Shown: positions 8,126 to 37,597 of the stretch, piece after piece | Layout of the letters: each line of letters starts with the position of its first letter | Position numbering within the stretch: position 1 is the stretch's first letter | Assembly: GCA_000992695.1 (NCBI GenBank) | Contig: LBUS01000011.1 | Span: 1 to 40,974, forward strand | Reading direction: 5' to 3' | DNA length: 40,974 nt | Origin: Candidatus Peregrinibacteria bacterium GW2011_GWF2_38_29 | Lineage (GTDB): Bacteria; Patescibacteriota; Gracilibacteria; UBA1369; UBA12463 | Translations under genes and position numbers: made by a program | Notes under the pieces: generated by a model | What the model was told of the DNA's origin: nothing | What the model saw: the letters and a program-made list of their open reading frames with translations, nothing else | The model's database searches: none

Positions 8126-8206
8126 AAACTCAAAACGCAAAACGCAAATCTCAAAACCACAGCTCAAAAGTCAAATCCACAAGTTAAAAGTTAAAACTCA
8201 ATGCGC
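8125..8206 (+). repeat. heptamer/13-mer repeat tract (copy 1)
   Basis: The tract can be cut into units of 7 nt of the form AAAANNY (AAAACTC, AAAACGC twice, AAATCTC, AAAAGTC, AAAAGTT, AAAACTC) with two interspersed 13-mers, AAAACCACAGCTC (8153-8165) and AAATCCACAAGTT (8173-8185). Very similar tracts occur at 13080-13126 and 33864-33917, each in the spacer upstream of a gene. Confidence 0.75.
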
Positions 8207-13066: not shown

Positions 13067-13079
13067 ATATTAATAAGTC

Positions 13080-13126
13080 AAAGCTCAAAAGTAAAAAGTC
13101 AAAACCACAAGTTAAAACTCAAAACT
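13080..13126 (+). repeat. heptamer/13-mer repeat tract (copy 2)
   Basis: Units AAAGCTC, AAAAGTA, AAAAGTC, the 13-mer AAAACCACAAGTT (13101-13113), AAAACTC and AAAACTA, same design as 8125-8206. It occupies the leader or promoter region of the giant surface gene. Confidence 0.75.
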
Positions 13127-29922: not shown

Positions 29923-30204
29923 CTACTCAATCACGAAATGATCTCTACCCGAACTAGATTTTATAATTCTTAAGGCACTTCCCTCAGTCTTGGCTACCCC
30001 TGTTGGTTTGCGCTTAGCAGATGTATCCTCGACTTTTTGGCTTAATGACTCCGTAAAATTCTCTAGATCCGCTTCTTTGATCCTATACATACGTCCAATC
30101 TTGATCGCTTGCAGGCGTTTTGATTTTATCAATTTCAAAACTGTGAAAGGGTGAACCTGCAATATTTTTGCGACTTGTTCGGATGTCAAAAAATTCTCTG
30201 TCAT
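29923..30204 (-). CDS. excisionase-family (HTH_17/MerR-like) DNA-binding protein, 93 aa
   Basis: Residues 1-~55 form a winged helix-turn-helix of the excisionase type: FLTSEQVAKILQVHPFTVLKLIKSKRLQAIKIGRMYRI followed by the acidic D-L-E-x-F end. The rest is a basic, Ser/Lys-rich tail ending in SGRDHFVIE. Such proteins are transcription regulators, phage excisionases or small-plasmid factors. No integrase is in the window. Directly upstream lie two arrays of 10-bp-spaced ATTAAA units, its likely operator region, with a -10 TATAAT 25 bp ahead of the start. Confidence 0.9.
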   Translation of the reverse strand: MTENFLTSEQVAKILQVHPFTVLKLIKSKRLQAIKIGRMYRIKEADLENFTESLSQKVEDTSAKRKPTGVAKTEGSALRIIKSSSGRDHFVIE

Positions 30205-30210
30205 TTTTAA

Positions 30211-30310
30211 TTGTTTTAAATTCCTGCTGATTATACTACATTACATTCAATTTCAGCAAATTTTATTAAACTTTATTAAATTACATTAAATTTCTGACAA
30301 CTTTATTTAA
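30211..30310. repeat. decamer array A: about ten units of TTnnATTAAA in 10-bp phase
   Basis: Read in steps of ten from 30211, successive units end in AAA or a near match: TTGTTTTAAA, two weak units, TTACATTCAA, TTTCAGCAAA, TTTTATTAAA, CTTTATTAAA, TTACATTAAA, TTTCTGACAA, CTTTATTTAA. No insertions break the phase. The array covers the promoter of the HTH gene (-10 at 30230-30235). One helical turn per unit would put the AT tracts on one face of the DNA. Confidence 0.75.
30230..30259 (-). promoter_or_regulatory. promoter of the HTH-zinc ribbon unit, inside array A
   Basis: On the minus strand, -10 TATAAT (30230-30235) and a weak -35 TTGCTG (30254-30259) at 18 bp. Predicted leader about 18-20 nt to the ATG at 30204. 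The upstream DNA is entirely phased AT units, which could act as an UP element or as operator sites. Confidence 0.5.
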
Positions 30311-30327
30311 AAGAACATTATTTCGTG

Positions 30328-30368
30328 AAACCACTATATACAATTTAACACAATTTTTCAAGTGGTTT
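30328..30368. repeat. 8-bp inverted repeat between the two decamer arrays
   Basis: AAACCACT (30328-30335) and its exact complement AGTGGTTT (30361-30368) enclose 25 nt that hold two copies of ACAATTT. It is the only non-periodic segment between arrays A and B. Confidence 0.45.
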
Positions 30369-30370
30369 GT

Positions 30371-30510
30371 AAAGTGAATTTAACTTAATTTCATTAAATT
30401 ACTCTTAATTTTGTTTAATTTTATTAAATTTGGTTAAATTCTATTAAATTTTAGATAATTATATTAAATTCTAATAAAGAATATTAAACTTTATTAAAGT
30501 TTGTTAAACA
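30371..30510. repeat. decamer array B: fourteen units of nnATTAAATT in exact 10-bp phase
   Basis: Read in steps of ten from 30371 the units include TCATTAAATT, TTATTAAATT, TGGTTAAATT, CTATTAAATT, ATATTAAATT, ATATTAAACT, TTATTAAAGT and TTGTTAAACA; all fourteen share T/A-TAA at the same place. The phase is kept over 140 bp without indels. It fills most of the 347-bp gap between the 88-residue gene and the HTH gene. No ORF is credible here. Confidence 0.85.
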
Positions 30511-30551
30511 ACATTAGCACAAGTATGTTGGCAGTGAAAAATAAAAAATTA

Positions 30552-30888: not shown

Positions 30889-33807
30889 CTATTTTTGAAG
30901 CCACTTCCCGGTCAAGGAGTCTTTATTCTTCATAATCTCTTCAGGAGTGCCTTTTGCAATGATTTCACCACCAAGGTTGCCACCGGCCGGTCCAAGGTCA
31001 ATTACGTGGTCAACCGACTTAATCACGTCCAAATTGTGCTCAATCGTGATGATTGTATTGCCTTTATCGGTTAAGCGATGCAAAACCTCAAGTAATTTCT
31101 TAATATCGTCAAAATGAAGGCCTGTAGTCGGTTCATCGAGAATATATAGGGTTTTACCCGTAGAACGCCTTGAAAGCTCTGTAGCGAGCTTAATTCTTTG
31201 CGCTTCACCTCCTGAAAGGGTTGTTGCAGGCTGTCCAAGGTGAATATAACCCAGTCCAACGTCTTGAAGCGTTTCCAGCTTGATTTTGATGTTTGGTATA
31301 GCCGAGAAAAATTCAACCGCCTCATCAACTGTCATATCCAGCACTTGTGCGATGTTTTTGCCTCTATAACCGATCTCAAGAGCCTCTGAATTGTATCTCT
31401 GGCCCTTACATTCTTCACAAGTGACATAAATATCAGGCAAGAAGTGCATTTCTATCTTTTTTGTACCTTCACCTGCACAAGCTTCACAACGGCCACCTTT
31501 TACATTAAAGCTGAATCTACCGGCTTTATAACCGCGAAGCTTGGCTTCCGGCGTCATGGCGAAGATGTCTCTGATATCAGTAAAAACGCCTGTATATGTT
31601 GCCGGATTTGAGCGCGGAGTGCGTCCAATTGGAGATTGATCTATATTAATAACTTTATCAATATTCTCAACTCCTTCGATTTTGTCATGTTTTCCCGGAT
31701 TTGTGCGTGAACCATAAACATCCTGCATTATACGTTTTACAAGAACGTCATTTACAAGTGTTGATTTGCCTGAACCTGAAACTCCGGTGACGCCAATGAA
31801 CATTCCAAGCGGAAATGAGACCGTTAGATTTTTGAGATTATGTTCACGAGCACCTGTTATTTTAATAAATTTACCATTTCCTTTACGTTTTGGTTTTGGC
31901 TCATAAACAAGCTTTTTGCCACTTAAATATTGACCCGTGGAAGATTTTGCATTTTTCATGATTTCAGCCGGCGTTCCTTGTGCGACAACCTCTCCACCGT
32001 GCTTACCTGCTCCCGGACCAATATCAAGAATAAAATCTGCGGATTTCATCATGTCTACGTCGTGCTCAACGACAATGACCGTATTATCAAGATCACGAAG
32101 CTGCATTAATGTTTGAATGAGTTTTTCATTATCATCCTGATGAAGCCCAATTGTTGGCTCATCCAAGACATAAAGCACGCCTGATAGCTTTGAACCGATT
32201 TGTGTTGCGAGCCTGATTCTTTGCGCTTCACCTCCTGATAACGTATTTGCCGAGCGATCAAGCGTTAAATAAGGCAAACCGACATTCATAAGGAATTGTA
32301 GGCGATTTTTTATTTCAGCGAGTGGAAGTTTTGCGATTTCCGCCTCGTTTTTTGATAAAACTAAAGTTCCCGCGAATTTTAAAGCTTCATCAATCGACAT
32401 TTGCGAAACATCGACAATCGACTTTTTATCAATTGTGACAGCCAAAACTTCAGGTTTTAACCTTGCGCCGTGACATGTCGGACACTCAAGAATGCGCATA
32501 AAACCTTCTATTTTCTTGCGAACGTAATCCGAATCGGTTTCCATATATCTTCGCTCCAAATTAGGAATTACGCCCTCAAAAGTTGTGTTGTAATCGCCCT
32601 GAAAACCGCTTACCGCAATGTCATCATCTGAATCGTCGTCCGAATCGCGTGAAATAGATCCGCCAATTCTGACTGTATATTTTTTATCTCCTGTGCCTTG
32701 CAAAACCAATTCCATGGCTTCTTTTGATAATTGCCCTACCGGCATTTCCATGGAAAATTTGTTTGCCTTGGCAACCGCTTCAAGAATTCTGTTATACCAA
32801 GTCAAATGCGAAGTTGTTGAAGACCAAGGCATAATCGCGCCCTCTCCAAGTGTTAAATTCTTATTTGGCATAACAAGATCAGGATCAATTTCCAGCTTTG
32901 TTCCAAGCCCATGGCATGTTGGACACGCGCCATGCGGACTATTAAAAGAAAACATTCTTGGTGAAATTTCCGAAATACTTATATTACACGTTGGACATGC
33001 GTATTTATCCGAATAAATTTCTTCTTTTTTTGTATCGAAATCCTGAACGATTATTGTGCCTTCGCCATGTTTTATGGCTATTTCAACTGAATCTGCAAGC
33101 CTTGAACGATCCGGATTTGGCATATCAATCTCCTGCCCTGAAGGAAGAACTTTTTTGATTGGTTTGAAGTTTTTTACAACTAAACGGTCAACGATAATAT
33201 CAATTGAGTGTTTTTTATTTTCATCGAGCTCGGGAACTTCAAGAATGCTATATGCATTACCATCAACGCGCGCCCTAACAAAGCCAAGTTTCTTAATTCT
33301 TTCAAAAACGGCTTGATGCGCACCTTTTTTATCACGAATCATTGGCGCCATAATCATAATTTTGGAATCTTCTTTCATATCTGAAATTATTTCCACAATT
33401 TGGCTGACACTTTGACGCGTAATAGGCTTGCCGCATTTTGGACAATGAGGATGTCCAACTTTGGCGAATATAAGCCTTAAATAGTCATAGACCTCTGTTA
33501 TTGTTCCAACCGTTGAACGTGGATTTCTTGGCGCTGATTTTTGATCTATTGAAATTGCGGGCGAAAGTCCGTCGATGGAATCCACATCCGGCTTTTCCAT
33601 TAATTGCAAAAATTGTCGCGCATAAGTTGAAAGCGATTCGACATATCTTCTCTGGCCTTCCGCATAAATTGTATCAAAAGCCAGAGTTGACTTACCTGAG
33701 CCGGAAAGCCCTGTAATAACTGTTAATTTGTTCTTTGGAATCTCTACTGAAATGTTTTTCAGGTTGTGTAAACGCGCGCCTTTTACTGTAATTTTATCAA
33801 TCGGCAT
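30889..33807 (-). CDS. uvrA: excinuclease ABC subunit A (UvrA)
   Basis: DNA damage sensor of nucleotide-excision repair; a dimeric ABC ATPase that loads UvrB. 972 aa, close to the usual ~940. Two ATP sites: Walker [10 protein letters not shown] (about 31-39) and GVSGSGKST (~650), with signature [14 protein letters not shown] and [14 protein letters not shown] and Walker [12 protein letters not shown] and [11 protein letters not shown]. Zinc modules: CPTC...CPTCHG (about 265-300) and CEAC...CEEC (about 755-785), plus an early HPHCPKCG. A small acidic Ser/Asp insertion ([14 protein letters not shown] near residue 390) is unusual. Transcribed from a promoter with TTGACT/TAAAAT inside repeat tract 3; single-gene unit. 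Confidence 0.98.
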
Positions 33808-33841: not shown

Positions 33842-33871
33842 ATTTTAGCACGAGATTCACACGAAAGTCAA
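33842..33871 (-). promoter_or_regulatory. uvrA promoter
   Basis: On the minus strand TTGACT (33866-33871), 18 bp, extended -10 TGC-TAAAAT (33842-33850). The -35 falls inside heptamer repeat tract 3. Predicted leader about 28 nt. No LexA-type CTGT-N8-ACAG box is evident. Confidence 0.6.
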
Positions 33872-33917
33872 AACTCAAAGGTCATAACTCAAAACCACAA
33901 TTCAAAAATCAAAAGTT
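33864..33917 (+). repeat. heptamer/13-mer repeat tract (copy 3)
   Basis: Units AAAACTC, a 14-mer AAAGGTCATAACTC, the 13-mer AAAACCACAATTC (33891-33903), AAAAATC and AAAAGTT, the same design as the tracts at 8125 and 13080. Here it lies upstream of a minus-strand gene (uvrA), so the orientation relative to the gene is opposite. Confidence 0.75.
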
Positions 33918-33989
33918 TAAAAAGGTTTAATGTGGCGATTTTTGAGATCAGCCTGCCGTGAGTCGACCCAAGAAATATAACAAAAATAA

Positions 33990-34030
33990 GACTTATTGCA
34001 CAATATAGATTTTTGCTTCGAAGCAAGCTC
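33990..34030 (-). repeat. 41-bp inverted repeat, left copy
   Basis: The reverse complement of this segment matches 37437-37477 at 39 of 41 positions. It includes the palindrome TTGCTTCGAAGCAA and overlaps the stop codon of the 34029 gene. The pair brackets the PrsW operon exactly. Confidence 0.85.
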
Positions 34031-35189
34031 AGTTTTTAAAAAATGATTCCGCGTGAATTGTTTTTAAAACATCTAGTGGACCTAGCCCCTGCTCCAACAA
34101 CGCTTCAACTCGCACCAATAAAGCGTCGTGCTTGGCTTTTAAAGCTTTGAAGTCGGAATTATTTTGATAATCATGCACGACGTAGCCATCGCTCCATATG
34201 CTAAAGTTAAAATCCGGCTGAGGTTGTTGCACAAAAGATGAATAATTTAAAACTGATTCTCTGTCATATCCCAAAAGCAGTCCAAGTCCTTTATCGTTAT
34301 CAGTCCCTATATTTGCACTATTCCTAGCATCACTTTTGTTTAATATTTCACCTACCGCTCCATCAACATCTCCTTCCCCAACACCACAACTTTCAAAAAT
34401 GTCAGCGTTGCCTCTAGTTACACCTGAAACTGCATGTTCATTATAAAAAACCGATTCATAAAAAACAACATTTTTCGGTATAGTCTTTAATAAATTTTGC
34501 CCCAAAAAGTTTCGTGAAATAACATGCGTTTTATGAAAAACTTTTTTTATACCCGGCATTATAGAGGCTATGTAATCTAAAAAATCATCAGCCTCAACCG
34601 ATTCCGCATATATGTCCGTTCTTCTAGAATAATTCGCCGCATTAATGCCTGCTAAAACAAGCATTATTGCTTTATACCAACTCTCTCCGCATAAAACTTT
34701 TACGGCTCTTTTTTGCATCTCTATATCTTTAGCATTTGCGTTTTTTGTAAGCCATTTTTTTGATAATTTCTCAACCTTTTCTCCTCTCTTCCTTACTCCG
34801 TTTTGAGCCTTTATTCCATCACGAGCCGATGCCGGCATAATATATATTACGTTCCCATCCGATGTTGCAATTTCTATTCCACCCTTTATTGCGTTTTGAC
34901 CATGAGCGCAAAGATCTTTGTACGTTCCTCCCTTAAAAAACTCTTTACATTCCGGATCGTCTATCTGCTTTGATGGATATGAAAATATTTTTAAACCTAA
35001 AAAATTTAATATTTCTACATTTTTAAATTCATTCTCTCCATTCTCATAAAAAATTATCGGATGCTCACCTATGTTTGTAGCTAATGTTGTTTTTATGTTC
35101 GGTAAATACCTTTGCAAAAGTGCTAAAGCGGCTTCCGCGCACTCTACTTCTCGCAAATCCTCAATTGGATCCGGTTCATTAATTCCCAT
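34029..35189 (-). CDS. uncharacterised protein, 386 aa
   Basis: Soluble, without signal peptide or transmembrane segment; no family is recognised. An acidic start (MGINEPDPIEDLREVE) is followed by a mixed alpha/beta region and a C-terminal helical segment (ALKAKHDALLVRVEALLEQ). Cys residues at DDPEC, DLCAHG, VLCGES and FESCGVG may be structural. It is last in the operon PrsW-199aa-217aa-386aa; the gap to the preceding gene is 1 bp, so translation is coupled. Its TGA lies in the left 41-bp inverted repeat. Its conserved neighbours may be lineage-specific. Confidence 0.8.
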   Translation of the reverse strand: MGINEPDPIEDLREVECAEAALALLQRYLPNIKTTLATNIGEHPIIFYENGENEFKNVEILNFLGLKIFSYPSKQIDDPECKEFFKGGTYKDLCAHGQNAIKGGIEIATSDGNVIYIMPASARDGIKAQNGVRKRGEKVEKLSKKWLTKNANAKDIEMQKRAVKVLCGESWYKAIMLVLAGINAANYSRRTDIYAESVEADDFLDYIASIMPGIKKVFHKTHVISRNFLGQNLLKTIPKNVVFYESVFYNEHAVSGVTRGNADIFESCGVGEGDVDGAVGEILNKSDARNSANIGTDNDKGLGLLLGYDRESVLNYSSFVQQPQPDFNFSIWSDGYVVHDYQNNSDFKALKAKHDALLVRVEALLEQGLGPLDVLKTIHAESFFKN

Positions 35190-35190
35190 T

Positions 35191-35844
35191 TTAGCCTTTT
35201 ATTACATCCTTTAATCCAGTTCTGATTTTATCCATTATTGCGCCAATTGGAGTCGCGCCGTTTCTTCTTGCCTCGTCTGCTTCAATCAATATATCCCACA
35301 AAAGATCCCTGTCTTTACCAACGTTCGTAGATACTATTTCTTCCGCTGAAATTACCCCTTGCATCTGCCTTGTAACCGCCACGGAAGCTATCTTTTTTCT
35401 ATATGCTTCTTGCGATTGAGTGTTCACTGCGGCTTCTTTTGTTCTTTTTGTTAATTTAGTTCCTTTCTTTTCGAGTTCTTGAATTTGCTCAATATATCCA
35501 TTTAAATTTTTAATAACATCAATCTTTGATATCATCTGTGCTTCTTCCGGACGAACCATGAAACGAATATCCAAATTTTTAAAATAATTTATAAAAACTG
35601 CCTGAGTAAGCTGATCCCTGACTCTTCTATCTGAAGAACTGCCTTCCATTATCCTTTTTACATCTCTAATATTTGTTCCATCTTTTTTAAAATTTTCCGC
35701 TATTTCCGTCGCTACGGCTTGCATATCCTGTTTTGCTTTTAATCCCGCAATTTTTCCGCCGAGCTGCGCTAAAAAATTATTTGGTTCAACGAACACCTCA
35801 TCGTCCACTCCTGCTGCGCTCGCTAATCTTGGATCTGCAACCAT
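35191..35844 (-). CDS. uncharacterised helical protein, 217 aa
   Basis: Nearly all helical, highly charged and without Cys, Trp-poor; a possible coiled coil at about 120-150 (NLNGYIEQIQELEKKG). No signal peptide or family is seen. The ATG at 35844 is 21 bp after the previous stop. The next gene starts one base after this stop. Likely cytoplasmic partner of the neighbouring gene products, which is inference from coupling alone. Confidence 0.78.
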   Translation of the reverse strand: MVADPRLASAAGVDDEVFVEPNNFLAQLGGKIAGLKAKQDMQAVATEIAENFKKDGTNIRDVKRIMEGSSSDRRVRDQLTQAVFINYFKNLDIRFMVRPEEAQMISKIDVIKNLNGYIEQIQELEKKGTKLTKRTKEAAVNTQSQEAYRKKIASVAVTRQMQGVISAEEIVSTNVGKDRDLLWDILIEADEARRNGATPIGAIMDKIRTGLKDVIKG

Positions 35845-35865
35845 TTTGTTTTTGTTTTAATTTTA

Positions 35866-36465
35866 TTATAAAGGCCTTACGCTTGTCGTTCTTTTGCCTA
35901 ATGCTCGCATGCCTGCCATTCGCTTTTCTATACCGTGACCTTTATCATTCTCCGCTTTTAACCTATCGCGAGTTTCTTTTAAAATGCCTTGAATAACAGG
36001 ATTTCCCGCAACTTCAGCAGCATCTTTTTTAGGCAAATACTCAGCTAATGCAACGATATTTTGATACATAGCCTTTTCTCCAACAGAGACAACTTGTGGC
36101 AAATTCGCCTTACCGCCTCCGACAGGGCTTGTTCTTGCTATTTCCATCATAAGTTGAATAGCAACCTGCGAAAGAACTTTATTTGCTATTGCGTCACGAT
36201 CTTCATAGCCACTAATTCCTGTTAGAATTGGCATTGTCATGTCCAAAATGACTTTAACGTCTTTTGGGCTTGCCATAACCGTTTCCGTTATAACCCTTGC
36301 CGTTTCATTTAAGGCTTCTCTTCGTTCAGCGGAGTCATCCATAAGATGCATTATTCCCACCTTTTTCGACTTTGGTGAACGAATTGTTTGTGATGGCTTA
36401 ATGTATTCGTGAAATTTTTCTCTTAACGTTTCTCTAAACGATGGCGTTTGTGGAGCTGTATCCAT
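35866..36465 (-). CDS. uncharacterised helical protein, 199 aa
   Basis: Basic at both ends, helical in the middle; contains a Gly-rich VGGGKAN loop that is not a P-loop (no GKT/S). No signal or membrane segment. The C-terminus is Arg/Lys-rich (KRMAGMRALGKRTTSVRPL), possibly nucleic-acid or membrane interacting. It is 36 bp after the PrsW gene and 21 bp before the 217-aa gene, in the same orientation. Family unknown. Confidence 0.78.
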   Translation of the reverse strand: MDTAPQTPSFRETLREKFHEYIKPSQTIRSPKSKKVGIMHLMDDSAERREALNETARVITETVMASPKDVKVILDMTMPILTGISGYEDRDAIANKVLSQVAIQLMMEIARTSPVGGGKANLPQVVSVGEKAMYQNIVALAEYLPKKDAAEVAGNPVIQGILKETRDRLKAENDKGHGIEKRMAGMRALGKRTTSVRPL

Positions 36466-36501
36466 AATAATTATTGTTATATTTTATTTTTGTTTTAACT
36501 T

Positions 36502-37323
36502 TTAACTCGCGACTTCTCTTGTTTCCAGCATGCCGTACTGCTTGTGATTTTGCTTTAAATCAAACAAATGATTGATATATATAAATCCGGCGACAAGATA
36601 TGGAATTAAAATGAATGTCCAGTTGAGTTCCAAAAATACGTTATAAATGGCATGCAAACCTGCCGCAATCACAAGCCCTTTTGCGATGTTTATCTTTCTG
36701 AAAAGAAGGTCTGTATCTTTAATGCGCCATCTGTATAAAAGTTCGAAAAAACTGTCTAATTTGCGAGTTTTAAGCTCTTCTTTGAGTATAGGTTTTGCAA
36801 AGCAAGCAAGGCCATAAAAATAGCCAAAAATACCGGAGAACATGACGTGCGCAAAGCTTGAAAAAATCGATCTGAAAACAAAAGGCGCAAGAATGTTTTG
36901 ACCACCTTGATGAATCCAAATGTTATAAAAATACATGATGTTTTCCGTGAAAGAGAAGCCAAGAGCGGCAATTATGCTGAATTGAATAACATCATCGATA
37001 TTCTTGAAATCATCTTCTTCGTCCGCAACGCGAACCGCAAAGTTCTTCATTGTTTCTTCAATAATTCCGACGATTATAAATGTGATTATGACGCTTAAAG
37101 GAACCGTAATAAATCTTGAAAAACCGATGTAATCATCGCTGAATGCCTGTGTATAGCGGAAAAAATTGAGCCATGGAAAATATTGCCATGAGAATTTATA
37201 GAGCAAAATCGGGAAAACCGAAGTTGCTCCCGCTAAAAATGTAATCAAAATCATACTGCGTCTTTCCGGCTTTTTGAGGTAAAAAACATATCCCCATACC
37301 AAAACCGGTACGATCGCAAGCAA
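36502..37323 (-). CDS. PrsW-family intramembrane metalloprotease
   Basis: Multi-pass CAAX/PrsW-type protease; PrsW of Bacillus starts regulated cleavage of an anti-sigma factor. Catalytic motifs are all present: IIEETMKN (EExxK) at about residue 85, GFSFTENIMYF (FxxxEN), SSFAHVMFSG (His), and GLHAIYNVFLE (HxxxN). About eight hydrophobic segments. The only start in this frame is a TTG at 37323, which cuts the first transmembrane helix short: the frame stays open for 15 more codons upstream (including SQIVQIIGSI), with no ATG, GTG or TTG. First gene of a four-gene operon with three unknown soluble proteins; substrate unknown. Confidence 0.88.
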   Translation of the reverse strand: MLAIVPVLVWGYVFYLKKPERRSMILITFLAGATSVFPILLYKFSWQYFPWLNFFRYTQAFSDDYIGFSRFITVPLSVIITFIIVGIIEETMKNFAVRVADEEDDFKNIDDVIQFSIIAALGFSFTENIMYFYNIWIHQGGQNILAPFVFRSIFSSFAHVMFSGIFGYFYGLACFAKPILKEELKTRKLDSFFELLYRWRIKDTDLLFRKINIAKGLVIAAGLHAIYNVFLELNWTFILIPYLVAGFIYINHLFDLKQNHKQYGMLETREVAS

Positions 37324-37383
37324 TATTGAGCCTATGATTTGAACTATTTGGCTGTTTATTTTGGTTTTTGTTTAGTTTGTGTA

Positions 37384-37412
37384 ATTATAGCACGAAATGC
37401 TAAATTTAGCAA
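37384..37412 (-). promoter_or_regulatory. promoter of the PrsW operon
   Basis: On the minus strand TTGCTA (37407-37412), 17 bp, extended -10 TGC-TATAAT (37384-37392). The -35 lies 24 bp inside the right copy of the 41-bp inverted repeat. Predicted leader about 54 nt to the TTG at 37323. Confidence 0.6.
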
Positions 37413-37436
37413 GATGGGGACGGAGGAGGTAAATCC

Positions 37437-37477
37437 GAGCTTGCTTCGAAGCAGAAATCTATATTTTGCAATAAGTC
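37437..37477 (+). repeat. 41-bp inverted repeat, right copy
   Basis: 39/41 identical to the reverse complement of 33990-34030. It lies upstream of the PrsW promoter, so together the two copies enclose promoter, four genes and the final stop codon. Confidence 0.85.
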
Positions 37478-37495
37478 GAAAATTTCGTAATATTT

Positions 37496-37513
37496 TTTTG
37501 CCCCGGGGCAAAA
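37496..37513. repeat. 18-bp perfect palindrome
   Basis: TTTTGCCCCGGGGCAAAA, no loop, in a very AT-rich divergent spacer and 18 bp from the right 41-bp repeat. The T-run precedes it on the plus strand, so it does not look like a terminator for either direction. The rest of the 311-bp spacer 37324-37634 holds the two divergent promoters and no credible gene. Confidence 0.55.
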
Positions 37514-37597
37514 GAGAGTAAGCTTAAGAATCTATAAAAAATCCCCGCCGACGTTTTTATTTATATCCGCCTGTGTTCGCCTTCGTCGAACGGCGTG

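Follow-up and report, generated by a model that had tools for sequence, protein, structure and literature searches.

The window, the whole stretch of 40,974 nucleotides that was analysed, contains a gene for a PrsW-family protease between uvrA and thrS, together with three further genes on the same strand and two inverted copies of a short sequence, here called arm 1 and arm 2. This genome (G000) was compared with its sister species, Peregrinibacteria GW2011_GWC2_39_14 (LBWJ01000009.1; G001), and with the third member of the genus (G002). The features of the locus are as follows.

30889 to 33807, minus strand: uvrA, conserved left neighbour
33956 to 33968, plus strand: near-palindrome TGAGTCGACCCA upstream of arm 1, found by reading and by comparison with its sister orthologue TGGGCCGGCCCA
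33969 to 34032, plus strand: arm 1, a repeat unit of linker and palindrome TTGCTTCGAAGCAA (about 34013 to 34026); 71.4 bits with cmsearch model R1
34029 to 35189, minus strand: D386, unknown protein, missing from the sister at this place
35191 to 35844, minus strand: C217, unknown protein, seen in two genomes only, this one and the sister (83% identical)
35866 to 36465, minus strand: B199, unknown protein, at the PrsW locus seen in no genome other than this one and the sister
36502 to 37323, minus strand: PrsW-family intramembrane protease (Pfam PF13367, 2.2e-24); TTG start as listed, the true start may be upstream
37417 to 37426, plus strand: REP motif GGGACGGAGG, of the type flanking the RAYT gene, directly adjoining arm 2
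37435 to 37499, minus strand: arm 2, a repeat unit of linker and palindrome TGCTTCGAAGCA between prsW and thrS; 75.5 bits with cmsearch model R1
37496 to 37515, minus strand: upstream palindrome of arm 2, TTTTGCCCCGGGGCAAAA
37635 to 39380, plus strand: thrS, conserved right neighbour

The first-pass annotation had placed a PrsW-type protease in this operon, and the identification held. PrsW was the sole recognisable protein, matching PF13367 with 86.5 bits against a curated cut-off of 23.5. Its score with the equivalog model NF033739 (glutamic-type intramembrane protease) was 46.9 bits, well below the 225-bit NCBIfam cut-off. Judged by its sequence, the protein is a member of the PrsW family, not necessarily one with the Bacillus function. 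The operon was also put forward in that annotation as a possible membrane-signalling system. The comparison of B199, C217, and D386 with Pfam, NCBIfam, and PHROGs gave nothing better than weak matches below cut-off, and the predicted structure of D386 (mean pLDDT 61.6, low confidence) had no fold match with E <0.001. Four genomes of the order had distant relatives of D386 at different places. Of 99 relatives, 98 carried PrsW, and the order and orientation of uvrA, PrsW, and thrS were kept across the family wherever one contig spans all three; the gene content of the PrsW-thrS interval varied among genomes. Beyond uvrA, positions 30230-30518 are rich in A+T and repeat an ATT...TTAAA motif with a 10-bp period; they lie upstream of a gene for a 93-aa protein that resembles a helix-turn-helix DNA-binding protein. 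This region (29924-30502) was 96% identical in the sister, compared with 90% in the flanks, and may consist of curved DNA or serve as a regulatory array.

Direct reading confirmed that 33990-34030 and 37437-37477 are inverted copies identical at 39 of 41 bases. Ungapped extension gave 33990-34036 and 37431-37477 (47 bp, 91%), and gapped extension reached about 33970 and 37498 (about 67 bp, E 1.3e-13), while the next best inverted pair within the window was 38 nt long with 74% identity. The placement of the arms was also as first described: arm 1 overlaps the stop codon of the 386-aa gene D386 (34029-34031), which adjoins its downstream side, and arm 2 lies just upstream of a sigma-70-like prsW promoter recognised by eye, about 25 bp away. 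The statement that they enclose exactly one operon is true of this assembly but means little as a sign of a unit: with 8-13 copies in 1.23 Mb, random placement would give about 0.16-0.44 locus pairs no more than 3.5 kb apart, and the bracketing is therefore weak evidence. At no more than three mismatches, the 41-mer occurred twice in the 1.23-Mb genome and in none of 290 relatives, and a profile of the unit found about eight further, diverged copies in the genome. A second dispersed, low-complexity repeat (AAGTCAAAACTCAAAA...) was seen at 33865-33914, 13075-13124, and 8127-8196 of the window, one copy adjoining arm 1.

The genome was searched with patterns, DNA queries, and a covariance model, and the stretches around the matches were then inspected. 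Of the readings first offered for the arms, a dispersed repeat was the one that stood: both belong to a dispersed family limited to the genus (71 and 75 bits with model R1). The unit consists of an A+T-rich linker of about 45 bp and a palindrome of 10-22 bp, often in tandem, so that the common plan of the copies is palindrome, linker, palindrome, often followed by a second linker and palindrome. A search with the sister's arm first brought up several copies besides the arms, and model R1 then found about 10, 16, and 7 copies in this genome, the sister, and G002, respectively. Across 37 other genomes of the order, the model returned matches at chance level and no credible copy, and two unit patterns had no match in viral contigs. 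The cores include CCGCGCGG, CTTCGAAG, GTCACGTGAC, CCCCGGGG, ATTTCGAAAT, GGGTCGACCC, and GGGCCGGCCC. All 23 loci inspected were extragenic. About 14 of them lay within 31 bp of the 3' end of a gene and none so near a 5' end, as counted on mechanical ORFs, with some loci being orthologous pairs and the direction of the unit relative to the gene being mixed. Four loci were examined for empty sites; for two of them the sister had orthologous flanks, and no clean empty site lay between these: at one the sister keeps the element without most of the linker and at the other it has a gene instead.

The sister aligned with the window over uvrA and over PrsW-B199-C217 at 90-92% identity and in identical orientation. 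It carries orthologous arms at both positions with a different core, the one beside C217 being ACTTATTGCTTGATATAGATTTCTGCCGCGCGGCAAGCTCAG and the one upstream of thrS ACTTATTGCTCAATATAGATTTCTGCCGCGCC... Since both sites are occupied in the sister, both arms are older than the split of the two species, and the genes that adjoin them differ. Inside the bracket D386 alone distinguishes the two genomes; thus the four-gene order put forward for the operon is kept in the sister for PrsW-B199-C217 but not for D386. On the thrS side, the sister has in addition an orf297-PIG-L pair, which was missing at the PrsW-thrS place in other relatives, and both a loss here and a gain in the sister are possible. 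Arm 2 of the sister is interrupted by an IS30-family transposase element and its original form is readable in halves only, the other half touching the PIG-L stop codon. The sister contigs C9 and C15 share an overlap of 99 identical bases inside this element, which lies in the palindrome of the arm (stretch L093, 3814-4644, and the end of L085) and has ends like AATCCGAACACTC.

The palindromes proved to be the variable part of the unit. The expected places held 32 perfect palindromes with a length of 8 bp or more, and 29 of these had a CG centre, compared with 45 of 240 (19%) in the window background (p 2e-18). The pairing positions covaried: 8 double-changed cells were counted, whereas shuffles gave 2.6. 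For ten palindromes at six loci, aligned by hand, the cores of the sister species differed at 27% of positions and the linkers at 8.7% (p 5e-6). Moreover, 13 changed pairs were still complementary where 4.3 were expected, a number reached in none of 20,000 simulations. At the PrsW locus, the arms of the same genome were identical at 29 of 31 bases, while orthologous arms agreed at 24-26 of 31. This suggests a concerted change of the two arms, for which gene conversion would be the simplest cause. The core CTTCGAAG is common to both arms and absent from the other copies of this genome, and some exchange of sequence between the arms therefore probably occurs. An identical swap of the upstream palindrome (CCCCGGGG / AGCCGACT) at two other loci also points to concerted change.

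Both arms are thus very probably copies of one short palindromic repeat, non-coding and dispersed between genes, that is confined to the genus, rather than the termini of a mobile or invertible segment. Their inverted orientation would arise because repeats at the 3' ends of two diverging transcription units face each other, namely the leftward PrsW operon and a rightward orf297-PIG-L operon that is present in the sister and absent here. The repeat would be a non-autonomous element that formerly spread and now persists, its palindromes being renewed via hairpin-templated repair and gene conversion between copies. Such renewal is proposed to explain why the cores change rapidly with no loss of symmetry and why the arms of each genome have a core in common. 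It is only tentatively suggested that cores are renewed at the DNA level throughout the genome, either by hairpin-templated replication errors together with gene conversion or by an enzyme that recognises CG-centred palindromes. If so, whole cores would be replaced in concert at dispersed loci, and sister species would differ at the same sites with the symmetry always kept. The repeat gives a small and clean example, from a candidate-phylum bacterium with a compact genome, of palindromes diverging about three times faster than linkers while staying symmetrical, and the comparison of more strains makes hairpin-templated change and gene conversion separately testable. It also illustrates a trap in calling cassettes from a single genome, as an apparent mobile operon resolved into dispersed repeats that meet at one locus.

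The repeats could instead act as RNA, as terminators or mRNA-stabilising hairpins at the 3' ends of transcripts, which would agree with the 3'-end bias of the loci and with the covariation of the stems. We consider this unlikely. RNA and DNA folding of the arms was equal to or only slightly better than that of shuffles (z -0.4 for the RNA fold of arm 1, which is no better), the symmetry reaches into the CG centre, which cannot pair in the loop of an RNA hairpin, and the window had no Rfam family at the gathering threshold.

A mobilisation of the units as REP/REPIN elements by the RAYT of the genus was also considered. A RAYT-type Y1 transposase was present in the three repeat-bearing genomes and in none of five other members of the family, and REP motifs of the RAYT type adjoin arm 2 and stand beside several other units. 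This co-occurrence is no more than a hint of a link between RAYT and the repeat. The gene is single-copy here (G000:C1:68652-68984, L173) and also occurs in both other genus members; the RAYT-like protein scored 69.8 bits, below the 80-bit NCBIfam cut-off. However, its flanks carry inverted GGGGACGGAGGT motifs, not palindromic units, and no such unit was found near the Y1 transposase genes. In addition, no constant tetranucleotide tag of the GTAG/CGTC type was seen by eye beside the stem across 13 aligned units. Mobilisation of the units by this enzyme is therefore doubtful.

Like REP/REPIN elements (PMC3116915, PMC3733652), the units are short, extragenic, palindromic, dispersed, and clustered, have a RAYT in the same genomes, and show compensatory changes, which are already known in REPINs (PMC3116915). 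They differ in their size of about 65 bp, the long A+T linker, the few copies, the CG-centred palindromes of many sequences, and the other motif that flanks the RAYT. With MITEs they share a non-coding, dispersed nature, and the copies in G002 (L158, L159, L160, L162) end in GTTTATACGAAC...GTTCGTATAAA, which are possible terminal inverted repeats; in the window copies no such ends were recognised, and no target-site duplication, empty site, or partner transposase was identified. The repetitive hairpin-forming and double-hairpin elements of sponge mitochondria, in which stems are conserved and loops variable (PMC2800124), are likewise hairpin units that are dispersed through intergenic regions and often occur in tandem, whereas the units described here are bacterial and have the palindromic stems as their variable part.

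The proposal that the arms are ends for a transposase acting in trans, which moved the operon as cargo, is very improbable: the genes beside the arms do differ between the sisters (D386; orf297-PIG-L) and a REP motif stands at a junction of gene content at two loci, where such motifs may mark variable content, but PrsW is a core gene in a fixed place between uvrA and thrS, its sister orthologue is already flanked by orthologous arms without D386, B199 and C217 are present there as well, the operon and arms show no joint variation in presence or orientation, and no target-site duplication was visible by eye at the outer edges (33989/37478). An expression switch by recombination between the arms, flipping the PrsW operon, has equally little probability: the inverted arms are long, nearly identical, and near the promoter, and their homogenisation within a genome means that they exchange sequence, but the orientation is the same in both species with no inverted form in two assemblies, the promoter lies within the segment and would be carried along in an inversion, none of the ORFs nearby was noticed to encode a recombinase, and the arms belong to a dispersed family. 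Inversion between the arms may occur rarely. A reading of the arms as integron-like cassette sites, considered because stop codons abut them, was set aside, as the units are repeats that lie between genes and point in mixed directions.

At another locus (L150 near 1457, L184 near 1950), GGGGGACGGAG is common to both species and is followed by total divergence, with repeat units in this genome and a gene in the sister.
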